From: Acidimicrobiales bacterium
GTDB taxonomy: Bacteria > Actinomycetota > Acidimicrobiia > Acidimicrobiales > Acidimicrobilacustridaceae
Assembly (NCBI GenBank): GCA_025455885.1
Contig: JALOLR010000002.1
Location: 124,001 to 188,000, forward strand
DNA: 64,000 bases
Reading direction: 5' to 3'
The translations under genes and the position numbers were made by a program. The notes below the pieces were generated by a model. That model ran no database searches and had not been told where the DNA came from. It saw only the letters and a list, made by a program, of their open reading frames with translations. Shown here piece after piece: positions 20,923 through 59,960 of the stretch (its first letter is position 1; every line of letters begins with the position of its first letter).

Positions 20923-22071
20923 ATGCCCACGAGACTCGCTCCCGGCATTCGAGAGAAGCGACCCGGCTACTTCGAGGTCCGCGTCTACGGGGGCGTCGAT
21001 CCGAAGACCGGCAAGGGCCGTCAGGTCACCCGCACCATCCGAGGGTCGGTGAAGGAGGCCAACGAGCTCCGAGCCACCCTGCTCATCGAGGTTGCTCGCA
21101 CAGGGGCACCTCATCCGCATGGACTCGCCGAGCTCTTCGATGCGGTCCTCGAGCACCTGGAGGCTCTCGGGCGGGAGCCCACGACACTCCACGGCTACCG
21201 ACGGATGGCCGACCGCATCATCGAGGAGGTGGGCGACAAGCCGCTGCGCAAACTGCGGGCGTCCGACTGTGACCGGTTCTACGCCGCTCTTCTTCGAGGG
21301 GGCTCCTCCCCCGCCCGGGTGCGCCGCTACCACGCGTTGCTCCACCGCTCACTCGCTCAGGGCGTTCGGTGGGAGTGGGTGCCGGACAACGTCTCGGATC
21401 GTGCATCTCCCCCACCCGAGCCTCGTCGGCAGATGCAGCTCCAATCGATCGAAGCGGTGGCCCGACTCATCCAGGTGGCCGAAGAGAGCAAAGAGCCGGA
21501 GCTCGGCGTCGCCTTCCGTGTCCTCGCAGCGATGGGCGGACGGCGGGGCGAGGTGTGCGGACTGCGGTGGAGCGACATCGACTTCGACTCCGGCCTCTGC
21601 GCCATCCGGCGGGCCGTGAAGCAGGTCCCTGGCCAGCCGCTCGTGGTGGGCGACGCCAAGAACCACCAGCAGCGGATCGTGCAGCTCGACCGCACCACCC
21701 TCGAGAGACTCGACCGACACCATCGAGAGATGCTCGAACGGGCGCAGACCTGCGGCCATGACCTGGCCGAGGACGCCTACGTGCTGTCCGACTCTGCGGA
21801 CGGCAGCGAGCCATGGAGGCCCTCCCGACTGACCCAGGCGCTGAGGCGGCTGCGCGATCGCGCCGGGTACACCGGTCGCCTGCACGACCTCCGCCACTGG
21901 CACGCCTCCCTGCTGCTCAACGCAGGAGAGGCTCCTGTGGTCGTCGCCGAACGACTCGGGCATCGTGATCCCTCCACCACCCACCGGTTCTACGCCCACG
22001 CCCTCCCACGAGCGGATGGCCGAGCGGCACAGCTGGTCGACGACGCGCTCCAGCCGCCCGAAAATGCGTGA
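20923..22071 (+). CDS. int: Tyrosine recombinase / phage-type integrase
   Basis: A 382-residue site-specific recombinase that would integrate and excise the element at the tRNA-Arg site. An arm-binding N-terminal domain (GYFEVRVYGGVDPKTGKGRQ) is followed by a SAM-like core-binding domain and the catalytic domain. Catalytic residues are visible: Arg in GGRRGEVCGLRW near residue 207, HDLRHWH near residue 322, LGHRDPSTTHRFYAH with the last His and the nucleophile Tyr near residue 356. It starts 102 bases from attL, the usual arrangement for tRNA-integrating elements. No frame damage is seen, so it may be active. Confidence 0.96.
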   Translation: MPTRLAPGIREKRPGYFEVRVYGGVDPKTGKGRQVTRTIRGSVKEANELRATLLIEVARTGAPHPHGLAELFDAVLEHLEALGREPTTLHGYRRMADRIIEEVGDKPLRKLRASDCDRFYAALLRGGSSPARVRRYHALLHRSLAQGVRWEWVPDNVSDRASPPPEPRRQMQLQSIEAVARLIQVAEESKEPELGVAFRVLAAMGGRRGEVCGLRWSDIDFDSGLCAIRRAVKQVPGQPLVVGDAKNHQQRIVQLDRTTLERLDRHHREMLERAQTCGHDLAEDAYVLSDSADGSEPWRPSRLTQALRRLRDRAGYTGRLHDLRHWHASLLLNAGEAPVVVAERLGHRDPSTTHRFYAHALPRADGRAAQLVDDALQPPENA

Positions 22072-22122
22072 CCACACCTTGCCCGACGTTCCGGGCTCAA
22101 CGCTGGTCGACCCAGCTCGTCG

Positions 22123-22509
22123 ATGCCCGCAGCGGGGACCCTCGACCTGGTCTCGGGCCGTGATCTCGCAGCCCTTGCAGCGTGGCTGACGAAACGCACT
22201 CCGCAGTCGGCGGGATCAGGTCGACAGGCCGGTGATGGACCTGTCGGGCCAGAACGGGCGGTCTTCGATGCTCCCCGGCGAAGTCCAGGTCGCGACCCCC
22301 TCCACGTCATGGAGCACACCAGCGCCAAGCTCGACGAGTGCAGCCGGCGGGTGAAGAACGAGACCCTCGGGCATCGAGGACGCAAGGCCGACCTGCTCCA
22401 TCGGTGCCGTCGTCTCTTGCTCGCCGTGCAGGACCGCCTCGACTCGCTCGGCGAAGCGAAACTCGCGGGGCCGTTGTGCGCTCGTGACCCGCCGGGACAA
22501 GGTCAGTGA
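22123..22509 (+). pseudogene. ISL3-family transposase fragment
   Basis: The 128-residue frame matches the middle of ISL3-type transposases in order: LDLVSGRDLAALAAWL, then GPERAVFDA, then KLDECSRRVKNETLGHRGRK, then RCRRLLLAVQDRLDSLGEAKL. The N-terminal zinc-binding part, the first catalytic Asp region and the C-terminal third with the last catalytic Glu are absent, and spacing is shortened in the middle. It is therefore an internal relic, not a working transposase. It lies between int and the low-GC cargo, marking a likely past insertion or rearrangement point. Family assignment is from pattern recognition. Confidence 0.75.
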
Positions 22510-22799
22510 ATCAGCCGATCTCGCCGGAAAAGAAATCTGCGGAGCAGCAGCGCATCGACAAGCAGAAGAAACGAGGCAAGACCGAAGGCCGTCACAACAT
22601 TCCAGGGCGATGGCAAACGCAGACCACCGAGATAGCCCGCGCCAAAGGCATAGACGACCACTAGAAATGCTGCCGAGAAAGCTCCTATCGAAGCTACCGC
22701 AAGAGTCTGCACGAATCCTCGCACGATCAAGCTCGACTTGGGCGGAGACCGCAGATTCGCGGACGCGCTTGCGGTCGTAGATCTTGCAACCCTAGCCAT
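22503..22799 (-). CDS. Small two-helix membrane protein, last gene of the carrier-protein operon
   Basis: A 98-residue protein with a basic N-terminal tail, two transmembrane helices (around LAVASIGAFSAAFLVVVYAF and VVTAFGLASFLLLVDALLL) and a basic C-terminus. No family recognised. ATG at 22799 overlaps the carrier-protein stop by 8 bases (ATGGCTAG), mirroring the overlap one gene upstream; an in-frame ATG at 22826 is an alternative. It may anchor the carrier or the acyltransferase at the membrane, or be the export component. Base composition is clearly lower in GC than the chromosome around the element. Confidence 0.65.
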   Translation of the reverse strand: MARVARSTTASASANLRSPPKSSLIVRGFVQTLAVASIGAFSAAFLVVVYAFGAGYLGGLRLPSPWNVVTAFGLASFLLLVDALLLRRFLFRRDRLIH

Positions 22800-23040
22800 G
22801 AATTCGAAAGTTCCGATAGTAGCCATAGACGTCAGCCACCGTGAACAGAGACATCAACAGTTCATCGGGAACGGGGCCGGCAGCAACCTCTTCTAGAAGA
22901 ACTGCAACTTCCACCATCATTATGGAGTCGAAGCCGAGATCACCTACCAATTGAGAACTACCTTCGACCGACCCCGGTCGAAGGTCGAAGAAGTCCTCAA
23001 ACCCCCGACAGAAGTCCGCAAGCCCAACCGGTTCAGGCAT
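22792..23040 (-). CDS. Acyl carrier protein-like (phosphopantetheine carrier)
   Basis: An 82-residue acidic protein with the carrier-protein core: an N-terminal helix (LADFCRGFEDFF), the attachment motif DLGFDSIMMVEV with Ser39 as the predicted 4'-phosphopantetheine site, and an acidic helix III region ending in FTVADVYGYY. The motif FDS replaces the LDS of housekeeping ACP, typical of dedicated biosynthetic carriers. ATG at 23040 overlaps the GNAT stop by 8 bases (ATGCCTGA), so it is translationally coupled; a longer frame starting at 23154 overlaps GNAT extensively and is rejected. A phosphopantetheinyl transferase is not in the element, so it must come from the host. Confidence 0.85.
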   Translation of the reverse strand: MPEPVGLADFCRGFEDFFDLRPGSVEGSSQLVGDLGFDSIMMVEVAVLLEEVAAGPVPDELLMSLFTVADVYGYYRNFRIHG

Positions 23041-23689
23041 CTCGCAGCAGGTTCTTGTCGCCATCCATAGCGAGGGCGCCAGGGCGCTTGCCCTCCACTG
23101 CTGCGAGCAAGCGTGATTCCTCCAATGTGGCACGGTGCCTGGCCCAACGCTCACGGGTAACCGAAACGGTGATCAGGTCGACGTAGGCGCCATTGACATA
23201 CTCGTGCTCTGTCAGGCGACCCTCCTCTATCCAAACCTCCCCGAAAGCTGTCTCGAATCGGTTCGCTGAATTCTGGATAGTCGCCCCGTATAGCTTACGA
23301 AACGGAAAGACAAGGAACAGATAGTCGATAAAGATCACCATGGATTCAAGCGGCCATGCCACCCCGTGAAAATCCGGAAAGATGTACTGAGCGATGTACG
23401 CGTGCCCATTTCGGAAATCGGCCTGGTAGGCCGCAACTATCCCGATGACCTGACCACTGCCATTCCGCACGACAAGGAAGTTGCACAGCACACCCTGAGT
23501 GAGGGAGGCTAGCCACTGTTCGGGACTAGGCGTCGTGCCACGGTGTCGATACAGAGTCCCAATCCGTGGATCCAGTTCAGCAAGCCGGAGCGCTTCGTAA
23601 TCCGAACCAGTGATTGGACGTAGGCTCACATACCTGCCGCGGTAGGGCAATGACTCCGGCTCGTTCCCACCTCGACCGGTTTGTGTCAC
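23033..23689 (-). CDS. GNAT-family acyltransferase, first gene of the carrier-protein operon
   Basis: A 218-residue RimJ/RimL-like N-acyltransferase. The family start YVSLRPITGSDYEALRLAEL, the central strand VIGIVAAYQADFRNGHAYIA and the late KLYGATIQNSANRF segment fit the fold. The usual pyrophosphate-binding Q/RxxGxG/A is replaced by HGVAWPLES, which may reflect an acyl-carrier-protein rather than acyl-CoA donor; that is inference. GTG at 23689 starts the frame. It is directly coupled to the carrier-protein gene, suggesting it uses the carrier-bound acyl group. Confidence 0.75.
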   Translation of the reverse strand: MTQTGRGGNEPESLPYRGRYVSLRPITGSDYEALRLAELDPRIGTLYRHRGTTPSPEQWLASLTQGVLCNFLVVRNGSGQVIGIVAAYQADFRNGHAYIAQYIFPDFHGVAWPLESMVIFIDYLFLVFPFRKLYGATIQNSANRFETAFGEVWIEEGRLTEHEYVNGAYVDLITVSVTRERWARHRATLEESRLLAAVEGKRPGALAMDGDKNLLRDA

Positions 23690-23778
23690 TTGTCGCCCCT
23701 ACATGGTCAGTCGTTTCAGAGAGCCGTCTCAGCCTCTGGAGAAATGGGCCCTGCCTCGGCCAACCTCAAGTGTGTCCG

Positions 23779-24282
23779 TCACCAAGCCCCAGAACAGACA
23801 TTGCTCCACAGAACGGGCAACGACCCAAATGTGAGGTCACAACCGAACTTGTAGGCATTCCCGGCATTCGACACATGACCATAAGTGTGCATCTCGTACG
23901 CGGGCCCGAAGTTGCTGTAGAAGGCCCCCCACATGTCTGCCTTAACTTCCTGCCCATACGATGCGGTGTTCTTGTAGGCTTGATACTCGCAGTTGGTAAT
24001 GGCCCAGCCCGGAAAGGCACTGTGATAGCAATACGAGTCGCCGTGCAGGACTTGATTACCTATCGCAGAGGCTGACTGCTGAAACTCCCAACCCAAGAAT
24101 ATCTCGGTAGCGGTCACTCCAAACTGTTCAAGAATGACGCTCTTGGAGAAGGCATTATGGACATGAATAGGATTGGCGTTGTGTGCTTCAGCACTGACGT
24201 AGCTGTTCGCCACGATGGCCGCCGGCGAAGCAATCGCTCCAATCACCGCCACCGAGCTTGCCAATCGCCCCGCTCGATTCAT
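23779..24282 (-). CDS. Exported protein of unknown function (167 aa)
   Basis: A 167-residue protein with a signal peptide (basic MNRAGR, hydrophobic stretch to SPAAIVA) and no further membrane helix. The mature part is rich in Asn, His, Tyr, Trp and Phe and has four Cys (SYCYH, TNCEY, FGCDL, NVCSG) that could form two disulfides; it ends in CSGAW. No family recognised. Its ATG overlaps the stop of the preceding gene by four bases (ATGA), so the two are translated together. Low GC and aromatic-rich composition set it apart from the host genes. Confidence 0.7.
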   Translation of the reverse strand: MNRAGRLASSVAVIGAIASPAAIVANSYVSAEAHNANPIHVHNAFSKSVILEQFGVTATEIFLGWEFQQSASAIGNQVLHGDSYCYHSAFPGWAITNCEYQAYKNTASYGQEVKADMWGAFYSNFGPAYEMHTYGHVSNAGNAYKFGCDLTFGSLPVLWSNVCSGAW

Positions 24283-55189: not shown

Positions 55190-55876
55190 CTAGAAGCCGA
55201 GCCCGGTCTTGGTCCCGGCCCCGCGGACCACACCCTCGGAGGGCTGGACCATCACCCAACCCTCACCGGAGAACGACATCTGGAACGTCTCGCCGGACCC
55301 CTTGCCGATCAGCGACTTCACGCTCACGTCGCTCTTGATCCCCATCTGCACCCCCTGGGTCCACATGACGACGGCCTGGGGATCGGCGAAGGTGGGCGCC
55401 GACGCGACGTCGAGCACGACCGGCGGCCCGTCGCAGCAGATGGCCACGTAACCGGTGCCGGTGAGCACCACGTTGTACATGCCGCCGGCCATCGCCCCGG
55501 CGCCGCCGATGGACTTGATGTCGTAGCCGATCGAGGCGCTGAACGCGAGCACGTTGGACCCGTTCACCCAGATGCTGTCGTTGTCGAGGTACATGATCTG
55601 GATCTCGGTCGCCTGGTTGGCGAGGAACACCTCGCCGGTGCCGGTCACGTCCATCACCGGCACCCCCTCACCCGTCATCTTGGACTTGAGGTAGCCGCCC
55701 ATCCCGCCCGAGCCGCCGTGGGAGAAGGAGGCCTCGCCCTGGTAGGCGACCATCGACCCGATCCGGGCCTTGACCGGCCCGTACTGCAGGAAGACCTTGA
55801 GCAGCTTCTTGTTCTGGAGCGTGAACGGGTCCGCTCCGGTCGTCTCCTTGAACTCGGTGAAGTCGGCGTGGATCAC
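55190..55876 (-). CDS. AIM24/TSPc-like beta-helix family protein
   Basis: A 228-residue beta-rich protein of the AIM24 family. Patterns such as KVFLQYGPVKARIGSMVAYQ, VNGSNVLAFSASIGYDIKSI and a late GKGSGETFQMSFSGEGWVMV fit the family, whose mitochondrial member is linked to inner-membrane structure; the bacterial role is unknown. GTG at 55876 has GGAGGG at good spacing. It lies 74 bases downstream of the Nramp-like gene on the same strand and may be read with it. Confidence 0.85.
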   Translation of the reverse strand: MIHADFTEFKETTGADPFTLQNKKLLKVFLQYGPVKARIGSMVAYQGEASFSHGGSGGMGGYLKSKMTGEGVPVMDVTGTGEVFLANQATEIQIMYLDNDSIWVNGSNVLAFSASIGYDIKSIGGAGAMAGGMYNVVLTGTGYVAICCDGPPVVLDVASAPTFADPQAVVMWTQGVQMGIKSDVSVKSLIGKGSGETFQMSFSGEGWVMVQPSEGVVRGAGTKTGLGF

Positions 55877-55950
55877 GGGGATCTCCCTCCGGTCGGGGAC
55901 GGTCGCGGGGCGCTCGCGGAGCGTAGAGCACCGGTCGCCGGGAGGGGCCG

Positions 55951-57231
55951 CTACCCCACGCCGAACCACCCGAGGACCGTCTGGACCAGCACCGCCGCGG
56001 CCAGCACGGCGATCACGACCACGCAGACCGTGGCCAGCACCCGGAACCAGGGCCGGTTGACGGCGTCGCCCAACACGGACCGGCGGTTGGCGAGGACGAG
56101 GATGAAGGCCAGCACCACCGGGGTGATGATCCCGTTGAGGACCTGCATGCCGAGCAGCAGGGAGATCAGGTTGCCGGGGATGAGGGCCACACCGGCCCCC
56201 ACGACGATGAGCGCCGTGAAGATCCCGAGGAACAGCGGGGCCTCCCGGAACGTGCGCGAGATCGACCGCTCCGCGCCGAGCGCCTCGGCCACGGCGTAGG
56301 AGGTGGCCAGCGGGACGACCGCCGCGGCCAGCGCCGACGCCCCGAGCAGACCGATCCCGAACAGGATCTCGGCGCCGGCGCCGGCGACCGGCTCGAGGGC
56401 CCGGGCCGCGTCGGCGGCCGAGTCGAGAGGCCCGCTGCCGCCGATCGTCGCCGCCGTGGCGATGATGATGGCCATGCTGACGAGGTTGGCGAGGACCGAG
56501 CCCACGATGCTGTCGGTCCGCACCATCCGGTAGTCGTCGGCCCCGGTGCCCCGATCGGCCACCGCCGCGGCCTGGTAGAGCTGCATGTAGGGCGTGACGG
56601 TCGTGCCGATCAGGGCGACCACGATGAAGAGGAACGCACCGTCGGCCACGAAGTTCGGGGCCGCCAGGTTGGCCGCCACCTCACCCCAGTCGGGTTCGGC
56701 GAGCACCGCGGCGATCGGGTAGGCGACGAACGCCAGCGCCAGCAACAGGAAAGCCCGCTCCGCGTAGCGGTAGTTCCCGAGCACCACCACGCCCCAGATG
56801 GCGAGGGCGGCGATCGGGATCGAGACGTACCGCGACACCCCGAAGAGCTCGAAGGCCGCCCCGATCCCGGCGAACTCCGACACGACCAGCCCGAGGTTGG
56901 CGACGACGAGGCACACAATGGCGAAGGTGGCCGCCCGCAGCGGGAAGTTCTCACGGATCAGGGCCATGAGGCCCTCACCGGTGAAGGCCCCCAGCCGAGC
57001 CGACATCTCCTGGACGACCACCAGCGCCACCGTCACGAGCAGCATCACGAACAGGGCGCGGTAGCCGAACTCCGAGCCGGCCGAGGCGTAGGTGGCCACG
57101 CCGCCGGCGTCGTTGCCGGCGTTGGCCGCGATGAGGCCCGGTCCGAGCACGAGCATCCAGAGCTTCCACCGGGCGCGCCGACGCCCCCGCGGTGCGGGGG
57201 TGACGTCGGCGGGCGGCCCGGTCTCGCTCAT
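55951..57231 (-). CDS. Nramp-family transporter, magnesium-type (NRMT-like)
   Basis: A 426-residue transporter with about 11 helices. Helix 1 reads GPGLIAANAGNDAGGVATY: aligned to the DPGN motif of manganese/iron Nramps the Asp is kept, Pro is Ala and the metal-binding Asn is Gly. In helix 6, TTVTPYMQLYQAA, the usual metal-binding Met is replaced by Thr. Loss of the soft ligands favours a hard ion such as Mg2+, as in the magnesium-transporting Nramp-related proteins. It starts 7 bases after an MgtE-like sensor gene, which strongly supports a magnesium role. Confidence 0.85.
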   Translation of the reverse strand: MSETGPPADVTPAPRGRRRARWKLWMLVLGPGLIAANAGNDAGGVATYASAGSEFGYRALFVMLLVTVALVVVQEMSARLGAFTGEGLMALIRENFPLRAATFAIVCLVVANLGLVVSEFAGIGAAFELFGVSRYVSIPIAALAIWGVVVLGNYRYAERAFLLLALAFVAYPIAAVLAEPDWGEVAANLAAPNFVADGAFLFIVVALIGTTVTPYMQLYQAAAVADRGTGADDYRMVRTDSIVGSVLANLVSMAIIIATAATIGGSGPLDSAADAARALEPVAGAGAEILFGIGLLGASALAAAVVPLATSYAVAEALGAERSISRTFREAPLFLGIFTALIVVGAGVALIPGNLISLLLGMQVLNGIITPVVLAFILVLANRRSVLGDAVNRPWFRVLATVCVVVIAVLAAAVLVQTVLGWFGVG

Positions 57232-57238
57232 GGTCCGC

Positions 57239-58567
57239 TCAGGAGAGGAGCCCCGAGAGGCGCCGGCGACGGTCGGGCAGGAGCGCGTCGACGACGTCGT
57301 CGGCCAGGATCCTCCCCACCGGGCGCCCGGCGTCCTCGACCACGACGATCGACGAACCCCGGTTCTCGACGAAGGCCTCGACGACGTCGGCGAGCGGCGT
57401 GTCCACCGTGACCGTCACCGGCGTCGGCTGGGTCTCGAGGTCGCGGAGGCACTGGTCGGGCTCGGCGACGAAGAGCTGGCCCATCGAGACGTCCTCGACG
57501 AGCACCCCGTCCCGGTCGACCACGAGCACGCCGTCGATGTCGCCGAGGTGCACGCGCTGGCCGAGCAACCGGCGCCGTGCCTCGGCCACCGTGGTGTCAC
57601 CCGGGCACGCCAGGATCGTGGTGGTCATGACCCCGCCGGCGGTGGCCGCGTCGTAGTCGAGCAGGTCGGTGAGGACCTCGGCGACCTCGGTGGGCATGGC
57701 CGCGAGGAGGTCGTCACGGGTCTCGGCGTCGAGGTCGCGGAGCGCGTCGGCGGCCTCGTCGGGCTCCATCCGCGCCACGAGCGACGCCGCCCGCTCGGGT
57801 TCGGCCTCGCGCAGGAGCGCGCGCAGCTCGTCGGGCTCCATCTCCTCGAGGGCGTCGGCGGCGGTTGCCTCGTCGAGGGCGTCGAGCAGCTCCTGGCGCT
57901 GTGAACGCCCGAGCTCCTCGAGGAGGTCGGCCAGCTCGCCGGGTCGCAGGCGCTGGAGCTCCCCGTTGGGCCGGCGCATGCGCACCGGTTCACCGGGCTG
58001 CGAGAAGGGCTGGATCGCGGCCCAGTCGATGACCCGGTCCGGATGAGGTTGGGCCCGCCACCGGGCCGGACCGAGCCGGCGCATCAGCGTGCCCAGCCCG
58101 ACGTCGGCCCCCACCAGGCGGTAGCCGGGTCCGACCCGGGCGAGGAAGAGGTCGGCCGCCCGGAAGACGCGGACGCCGTCGACGTCGACCATCTGGTGGT
58201 CGAGCACGTCGTCGGCGAGGCGGACCTCGTTGTCGCGTCGCACGACGTCACGCAGGTCGAAGCGCACGGACCGCAACGTCACGCGACGCGCCGCCATCTC
58301 CTCGATCGCCCCGGCCGGCACCCAGGCGAGACGGCGCCCGACCCGTACGACCAGGCCGGTGAGCGGCGGGTAGGGCTCGCCCTCCCACCGCACGACGATG
58401 TCGACGAGTCGGCCGACCTCGGCGCCGGAGCTGTGCACCACCGGCGACCCGGCCAACGTGGCCACGGACAGCAGGGACTGGGAGACGGCTTCGAGGGCCA
58501 ACAGCCGCTGGGTTCGCTGTTGACGGCGCTGACGCAGCGCGCGAGGGGCGTTCAGGGGACTGACCAT
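57239..58567 (-). CDS. Soluble PRC-barrel / MgtE_N / CBS protein (magnesium sensor without pore)
   Basis: A 442-residue cytoplasmic protein with no transmembrane helix. Residues 35-160 hold two PRC-barrel-like segments (GRLVDIVVRWEGEPYP, LARVGPGYRLVGADVG). Residues 200-305 form the MgtE N superhelix (LLEELGRSQRQELLDALDE, EMEPDELRALL). Residues 310-435 are a CBS pair (GVMTTTILACPGDTTVAEA, VENRGSSIVVVEDAG). In true MgtE these domains sense Mg2+ and gate a membrane pore that is absent here; the coupled Nramp-like gene may take its place. ATG at 58567 has GGAGG at good spacing. Confidence 0.88.
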   Translation of the reverse strand: MVSPLNAPRALRQRRQQRTQRLLALEAVSQSLLSVATLAGSPVVHSSGAEVGRLVDIVVRWEGEPYPPLTGLVVRVGRRLAWVPAGAIEEMAARRVTLRSVRFDLRDVVRRDNEVRLADDVLDHQMVDVDGVRVFRAADLFLARVGPGYRLVGADVGLGTLMRRLGPARWRAQPHPDRVIDWAAIQPFSQPGEPVRMRRPNGELQRLRPGELADLLEELGRSQRQELLDALDEATAADALEEMEPDELRALLREAEPERAASLVARMEPDEAADALRDLDAETRDDLLAAMPTEVAEVLTDLLDYDAATAGGVMTTTILACPGDTTVAEARRRLLGQRVHLGDIDGVLVVDRDGVLVEDVSMGQLFVAEPDQCLRDLETQPTPVTVTVDTPLADVVEAFVENRGSSIVVVEDAGRPVGRILADDVVDALLPDRRRRLSGLLS

Positions 58568-59672: not shown

Positions 59673-59960
59673 TCAGGTGCGCAGGAGCCGCTCGATGGCC
59701 GTCATGGCCTCGGCGAGCTCGTCATCGCCGGCCTCGTCGCTCTCCACGGCCGCGGCCACGACGCAGTGGCGCAGGTGCTCGTCGAGGAGCCCGAGGCCGA
59801 CGCCCTGCAGCGCCTTGGTGACGGAGGCGATCTGGGTGAGGACGTCGATGCAGTACTTGTCCTCCTCGATCATGCCCTGCAGGCCCCGCACCTGGCCCTC
59901 GATGCGCCGCAGGCGGGTGAGGTACTGGTCCTTCGTCAGCGAATAGCCCCTCGTGGTCAT
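59673..59960 (-). CDS. csoR: CsoR-family copper-sensing repressor
   Basis: A 95-residue all-helical repressor (DUF156). The copper ligands Cys-x24-His-x3-Cys are visible as CIDVLTQI, then LLDEHLRHCV. RLRRIEGQVRGLQGMIEED is the DNA-contacting helix. It would release its operator when Cu(I) binds. ATG at 59960 faces copZ across 55 bases that contain a C/G-run pseudo-palindrome typical of CsoR sites. Confidence 0.93.
   Translation of the reverse strand: MTTRGYSLTKDQYLTRLRRIEGQVRGLQGMIEEDKYCIDVLTQIASVTKALQGVGLGLLDEHLRHCVVAAAVESDEAGDDELAEAMTAIERLLRT

Follow-up and report, generated by a model that had tools for sequence, protein, structure and literature searches.

Does a pore-less MgtE-like protein make the NRMT-type Nramp transporter encoded beside it sensitive to cytosolic Mg2+? 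This simple question is posed by two genes of the window, by which we mean the whole analysed stretch of 64,000 nucleotides from an Acidimicrobiales bacterium (contig JALOLR010000002.1). The available text of the 2014 description of such pairs (Shin et al. 2014; PMC4072509) does not settle what the MgtE-like gene does, and the co-occurrence of the two genes, their exchange with MgtE and the dead-pore forms of the partner reported here lead directly to the question. If the answer is yes, the gate of one transporter has become the regulatory subunit of another.

The gene pair and its two products

The pair and the parts of its products that are relevant here are as follows, with the evidence for each in brackets.

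57239..58567, minus strand: sensor gene, pore-less MgtE-like, 442 amino acids (open reading frame; Pfam MgtE_N and CBS; model against the MgtE cytosolic domain)
57998..58471, minus strand: PRC-type beta-rich region of the sensor, residues 33-190 (strands in the model; PRC scores of homologues)
57650..57949, minus strand: MgtE N domain of the sensor, residues 207-306 (Pfam; alignment)
57278..57649, minus strand: CBS pair of the sensor, residues 307-430 (Pfam)
55951..57231, minus strand: transporter gene, NRMT-type Nramp, 426 amino acids (Pfam Nramp; 332.7 bits to EleNRMT, 7qia)
57100..57111, minus strand: helix 1 site motif DAGG of the transporter, D41 and G44 (alignment)
56593..56604, minus strand: helix 6 site motif TTVT of the transporter, T210 and T213 (alignment)

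Both open reading frames and the 7-base spacing had been placed correctly in the preliminary description: the sensor gene lies upstream, and 7 nt separate its stop codon (TGA) from the ATG of the transporter gene. In their own genome, the window transporter is the sole Nramp match and the window sensor the sole MgtE_N match. The locus is a member of an already described gene pair, consisting of NrmT and an MgtE-like gene (Shin et al. 2014). A riboswitch search of the window at E up to 1 returned two unrelated weak rows and no M-box, no promoter-like sites were found at the window, and the single terminator-like site lies within the transporter gene and is near the shuffled mean of 0.6. Elsewhere in the window, G+C drops to 0.594 at 22001-24000, compared with 0.65 to 0.77 in the rest, and this is possibly a foreign stretch.

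The transporter matches the Pfam Nramp family at E 1.2e-83. Its best match among solved proteins is EleNRMT (7qia), at 332.7 bits, and the next distinct protein, a classical Nramp, scores 91.2 bits. In an alignment with DraNramp, GNDAGG and GTTVTPY of the window stand against YMDPGN and GATVMPH; the Asp is kept, Asn is replaced by Gly and Met by Thr, exactly as first read from the DNA, and Ala is also replaced by Thr, so that the site reads DxxG-TxxT. At the helix-6 position where DraNramp has the proton-path His, the window has Tyr. The NRMT signature given in the accessible part of its publication is DxxG-TxxA/T (PMC8806188), and D41-A-G-G44 and T210-T-V-T213 fall within it. Judged by its sequence, the transporter is an NRMT, and its designation as a magnesium-type Nramp is upheld by the DxxG-TxxT signature and by a score to EleNRMT far above that of the next distinct protein. 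Mg2+ is the likeliest ion of the window NRMT, with Mn2+ possible too; EleNRMT itself is described in the same source as carrying both (PMC8806188).

The upstream protein was expected to hold an MgtE N domain and a CBS pair without the MgtE pore, and Pfam bears this out: MgtE_N matches residues 207-306 (E 1.1e-20), two CBS stretches follow and the protein ends after them. The pore family PF01769 has no match in the sensor protein and none in its own genome. The structural model of the sensor has a mean pLDDT of 82.5, and its C-terminal half corresponds to the MgtE cytosolic domain, with a TM-score of 0.87 by target length against 8gps and a Z of 22.6 against 2yvy (242 residues aligned, rmsd 2.7). 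D238, D270 and D274 of the sensor occupy the positions of E59, D91 and D95 of Tth MgtE, and the CBS pair has Asp at the D247 and D250 positions and Arg at the D226 position. In the accessible account of Tth MgtE, closing needs Mg4 (D91, D247), Mg5 (D226, D250), Mg6 (D95) and Mg7 (E59) (PMC5882242); the window sensor thus retains Asp at five of these six positions, the exception being the Arg at D226.

These positions were compared across 165 cores, from which short matches, five duplicate loci and also L001 and L002 had been removed; the repeats L062, L064 and L065 are still included. Among the 103 NRMT-adjacent sensors without a pore-like tail, Asp is present at D91 in 95 and at D247 in 97, and Asp or Glu at D95 in 101, at E59 in 98 and at D250 in 85; Asp at D226 occurs in only 11. 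The real MgtEs compared vary at these positions too, with Asp or Glu at D91 in 10 of 13 and at D247 in 9 of 13, and the sensors are therefore no less conserved than the channels.

The region in front of the N domain had been described as PRC barrels, an added feature of the locus. A PRC-type region is supported by homologues, as five of the six sensor homologues scanned with PF05239 exceed the cut-off of 21.2 bits and the sixth falls just under it; the window protein alone scores a weak 14.1 bits, below that cut-off. The plural is not upheld, and the strands are predicted only: a second barrel was sought by comparing the two halves with hhalign, and the match was not significant (probability 0.2 percent). 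No PRC-type entry appears among 50 VIA rows, which mostly cover residues 267-435. Rather than being an addition at this locus, the region is a regular part of the partners, as a PRC model built from 33 of the sensors later scored matches 150 of 152 sensors and none of the 13 MgtEs compared.

Linkage, co-occurrence and exchange with MgtE

A survey of 119 genomes from the class of the window's genome separated full-length sensors into groups A, B and C. In all 14 genomes of group A (sensor E < 1e-120), the sensor adjoins an NRMT on the same strand (E < 1e-150), and in all 14 genomes of group B it adjoins a member of a second Nramp clade with DxxG-TxxA, the two genes being on opposite strands in G014 and G107. 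The 15 loci of group C have no Nramp neighbour, and two genomes, G073 and G088, carry sensors of both groups A and C. As all 28 sensors of groups A and B, the nearest to that of the window, stand beside an Nramp gene, chance is excluded.

The preliminary description had proposed the co-occurrence of the two genes as a check, and across 197 genomes of the phylum the outcome is positive: 45 of the 47 genomes with an NRMT (E up to 1e-60) carry the partner sensor, as against 3 of the 150 without (sensors not of the DUF1003 type), the phylum and class counts being raw by genome and not phylogeny-corrected. The two genes are linked in 35 of the 45 and on separate contigs in 10, and one genome (G154) has a truncated sensor. 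The sensors of the three NRMT-less genomes (G151, G202 and G239) each stand beside a more distant Nramp, at E about 1e-50 to 1e-52. Linkage, co-occurrence without linkage and the retained Mg-site residues thus lend good support to the proposal of a regulatory module from MgtE serving a magnesium-type Nramp. A mirror-tree correlation of 0.73 between sensor and NRMT (102 pairs; shuffle maximum 0.08) is obtainable from shared ancestry alone and is not counted as evidence. One genome, G204, has a second full-length sensor on contig 37.

A scan of named genomes across phyla with the NRMT alignment confirmed at least 561 relatives, of which the best 80 were kept; the scan patterns contain the site motif, and its conservation in these 80 loci is therefore imposed. 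At least three of the 80 (L062, L064 and L065) repeat class genomes. A sensor core lies within 1.3 kb of the NRMT in 64 of the best 80 (61 upstream on the same strand, one downstream and two on the other strand). Of the 16 loci without one, three have fewer than 110 bases upstream, and 13 hold stand-alone NRMTs, with no sensor detected and no truncation just upstream. M-boxes precede the pair or a lone NRMT in 11 of 16 loci from the best 80 scanned with Rfam, all Bacillota-type records. In two Mycobacterium loci (L075:3075-3998 and L076:3018-3926), the NRMT partner has been reduced to the PRC region and a portion of the N domain, with no CBS pair; L076, with PRC and a weak MgtE_N remnant, is counted as sensor-less. 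A natural fusion of sensor and NRMT was sought in the 80 scanned loci, and no reading frame has both matches; a 1144-residue frame at L052 has the Nramp match only, its extra length being read as a high-GC frame extension.

Two plasmids carry the pair. On that of Alicyclobacillus fastidiosus (L192:2992-5488), sensor and Nramp genes lie between a recombinase gene and transposase genes, a site that indicates the pair may move as a unit. On that of Mycolicibacterium aubagnense (L193:3004-7215), sensor, Nramp, hypothetical and MgtC/SapB-family genes stand in a row.

Within the class, the cassettes replace MgtE. An MgtE pore over the cut-off is found in 2 of 41 genomes with any sensor cassette, compared with 71 of 78 without (matches below the cut-off in cassette genomes G049 and G088 are not counted), and by genus in 3 of 27 compared with 50 of 52. 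CorA has no such relation, being present in 20 of 41 genomes with a cassette and 39 of 78 without. Eighteen cassette genomes have no MgtE, CorA or MgtA over the cut-off: 3 of 14 in group A, 11 of 14 in group B and 4 of 13 with group C only. In the phylum outside the class the exclusion is weaker: 20 of 45 genomes that carry an NRMT cassette also have MgtE, as do 84 of 134 that lack one, in a table that leaves out G151, G202 and G239. The overlap there occurs mostly where the partner frame has at least 600 residues (15 of 26, compared with 2 of 16 other NRMT genomes).

A single genome of the window's own genus, G072, illustrates the exchange. In it the crtI, crtB, AIM24, yaaA and CsoR-type genes follow one another as in the window (the crt and yaaA names are assigned by homology); the AIM24 and yaaA matches are 135 bases apart, neither gene of the pair is matched, and a full MgtE is encoded elsewhere in the genome. 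Both genes are absent as a unit, and MgtE is present instead. The CsoR-type repressor gene of the window (59673-59960) was considered as a part of the system and rejected, because it persists in pair-less G072. The listed AIM24 open reading frame (55190-55969) shares 19 bases with the end of the transporter gene; its match in G072 starts at residue 33, and the true start is therefore probably further in.

Dead-pore partners and the DUF1003 branch

At 15 loci the sensor runs on into a membrane domain of 188-222 residues: L088:38-1918 (Coriobacteriales), L133:1843-3744 (Eggerthellales) and 13 from the phylum search within L153-L169. Three of these tails match PF01769 (E 3.4e-9, 3.7e-6 and 4.6e-7), two of them from loci without an adjacent NRMT; the whole L088 and L133 proteins do not match PF01769 at E values of 0.01 or below. 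When the profile of the 15 tails is set against that of 13 real MgtE pores, the probability is 99.6 and the E is 6e-24. An Asp present in all 13 real pores is replaced in all 15 tails, as is the GG pair, and this Asp we take, by position, to be Tth D432. Mutation of Tth D432 abolishes MgtE conduction, according to the accessible part of the MgtE study (PMC5882242). Thirteen of the 15 dead-pore sensors adjoin an NRMT, and for the other two (L163 and L168) the NRMT is on another contig. The open reading frames beside L163 and L168, considered as a third partner, were dropped, as by their motifs they are presumably D-Ala-D-Ala-carboxypeptidase-like. At three further loci (L157, L160 and L165) there is a tail of 43-48 residues that by eye looks like one membrane helix. 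The series of dead pore, short tail and no pore suggests that a whole MgtE, with the function of its pore lost first, gave rise to the pore-less partner. In the sensor tree the split of all sensors from MgtE has a support of 0.0, and the tree does not give the order of pore loss.

Group C sensors have a different companion. A DUF1003 gene directly follows in 15 of 15 loci of the class (three proteins checked) and in 18 of 18 loci fetched from other classes of the phylum, 33 of 33 in all. The loci of this type are L033-L047 and L171-L188, together with L191:2983-4796, and the same order of sensor and DUF1003 is annotated in a plasmid record of Tsukamurella tyrosinosolvens. A single clade of the sensor tree takes in the DUF1003-type sensors (34 of 34, support 1.0), and no DUF1003 match occurs in the best 80 NRMT loci. 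An MgtE pore over the cut-off is present in only 1 of the 15 class genomes with the sensor-DUF1003 pair.

DUF1003 genes also occur away from sensors, and in four genomes of the class one has a CorA gene no more than about 1 kb away (G086:C19, G092:C73, G029:C9 and G115:C207), which may hint further at magnesium. A literature search, with subscription journals mostly outside its scope, found two publications that name DUF1003 and none joining it with magnesium. The sensor-DUF1003 pair is a candidate for a magnesium system whose membrane protein is as yet uncharacterised, and the pairing provides a testable link to magnesium for a family of unknown function. The relatives show parts of the pairing that appear, by sequence, to have been swapped and re-used. 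A broader reading, which we offer tentatively and hold to be somewhat short of probable, is that PRC-MgtE_N-CBS is a portable Mg-sensing subunit from a whole MgtE, its dead pore kept in one group beside NRMT and shed in the window form, and that a sister clade has been re-used with DUF1003, which would then be either a new transporter of magnesium or such a transporter's membrane partner.

Proposed mechanism and known systems

The two genes probably, if by no means certainly, form a magnesium-uptake unit in which the sensor is a detached MgtE gate that inhibits the NRMT at high Mg2+. The NRMT would let Mg2+, and probably Mn2+ as well, cross the membrane passively, and the sensor, a cytosolic gate separated from its MgtE-type channel, would bind Mg2+ between its N domain and CBS pair. 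At low cytosolic Mg2+ the sensor would be permissive; at high Mg2+ it would become compact and inhibit the NRMT as it would close an MgtE pore. Since the PRC-type region recurs among the partners and none of the compared MgtEs has it, it is the best candidate for a docking part, one that would replace the lost pore. Physical binding, inhibition, docking through the PRC region and Mg2+ as the physiological ion are steps that we infer. In favour of a gating unit are the NRMT signature, the linkage (28 of 28), the co-occurrence (45 of 47), the MgtE exchange together with G072, the Mg positions (five of six) and the M-boxes (11 of 16). Against it are the A. capsulatum member, with its Mn2+ transport and no gain from its partner, the stand-alone NRMTs, the CBS-less Mycobacterium partners, the Arg at D226 in the window, the coexistence with MgtE in 20 of 45 genomes outside the class and the lack of an M-box in the window.

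The ion is the point of one alternative, which we regard as unlikely: that the transporter chiefly imports Mn2+ and that Mn2+ or a different divalent ion is what its MgtE-like partner senses. The A. capsulatum NrmT, which has such a neighbour, is mainly a Mn2+ transporter in the accessible text of Shin et al., fully rescuing a Mn2+-import mutant, whereas rescue of a Mg2+ mutant needed low millimolar Mg2+ (PMC4072509). EleNRMT likewise carries Mn2+ in addition (PMC8806188, accessible part), the window transporter is the only Nramp of its own genome, and Acidobacteriaceae relatives have the same site letters, though these are imposed by the scan patterns. However, the sensor cassettes exchange with MgtE within the class, M-box riboswitches stand before 11 of the 16 related loci scanned, and 14 genomes of groups A or B lack MgtE, CorA and MgtA over the cut-off used. 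That the partner is not a gate but a metal chaperone, an assembly factor or a signalling protein is quite unlikely in our estimate. The same text names feedback regulation and metal-chaperone activity as proposals for the MgtE-like gene, and describes Ca_c0685 and Ca_c3329 as functional without the extra gene and a partial MgtE co-expressed with the A. capsulatum transporter as giving no better rescue (PMC4072509). The PRC region has no MgtE counterpart, and partners without a CBS pair exist (L075 and L076). The acidic N-domain and CBS positions that close MgtE are nevertheless kept, and one partner group retains a membrane pseudo-pore, so that a regulatory subunit fits better than a partner of another kind.

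The closest known system is that of Shin et al. (2014), in which, as far as its accessible text goes, most NrmT genes have a neighbouring gene with homology to the cytosolic domain of MgtE (PMC4072509). The same two kinds of gene adjoin and the same feedback role was proposed there, and the central idea of the present finding is therefore not new. The window differs from those pairs in having no M-box, and the PRC region and the pore-bearing variants are absent from the available part of that description. As far as searches of a mostly open-access literature show, four points go beyond what is in print: the coupling as measured here, the swap between cassette and MgtE, the partners with a dead pore and the branch associated with DUF1003. 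EleNRMT of Eggerthella lenta (PMC8806188; PDB 7qia) shares the DxxG site with the window transporter, and both lack the classical helix-6 His; the two are 44% identical and differ at the second helix-6 position, which is Ala in EleNRMT and Thr in the window. The sensor in turn has the same fold as the MgtE cytosolic domain (2yvy, 2zy9 and 8gps), with an N domain, a CBS pair and most of the gating acids kept, but, unlike the MgtE channel, it has no pore and carries a PRC-type region in front.
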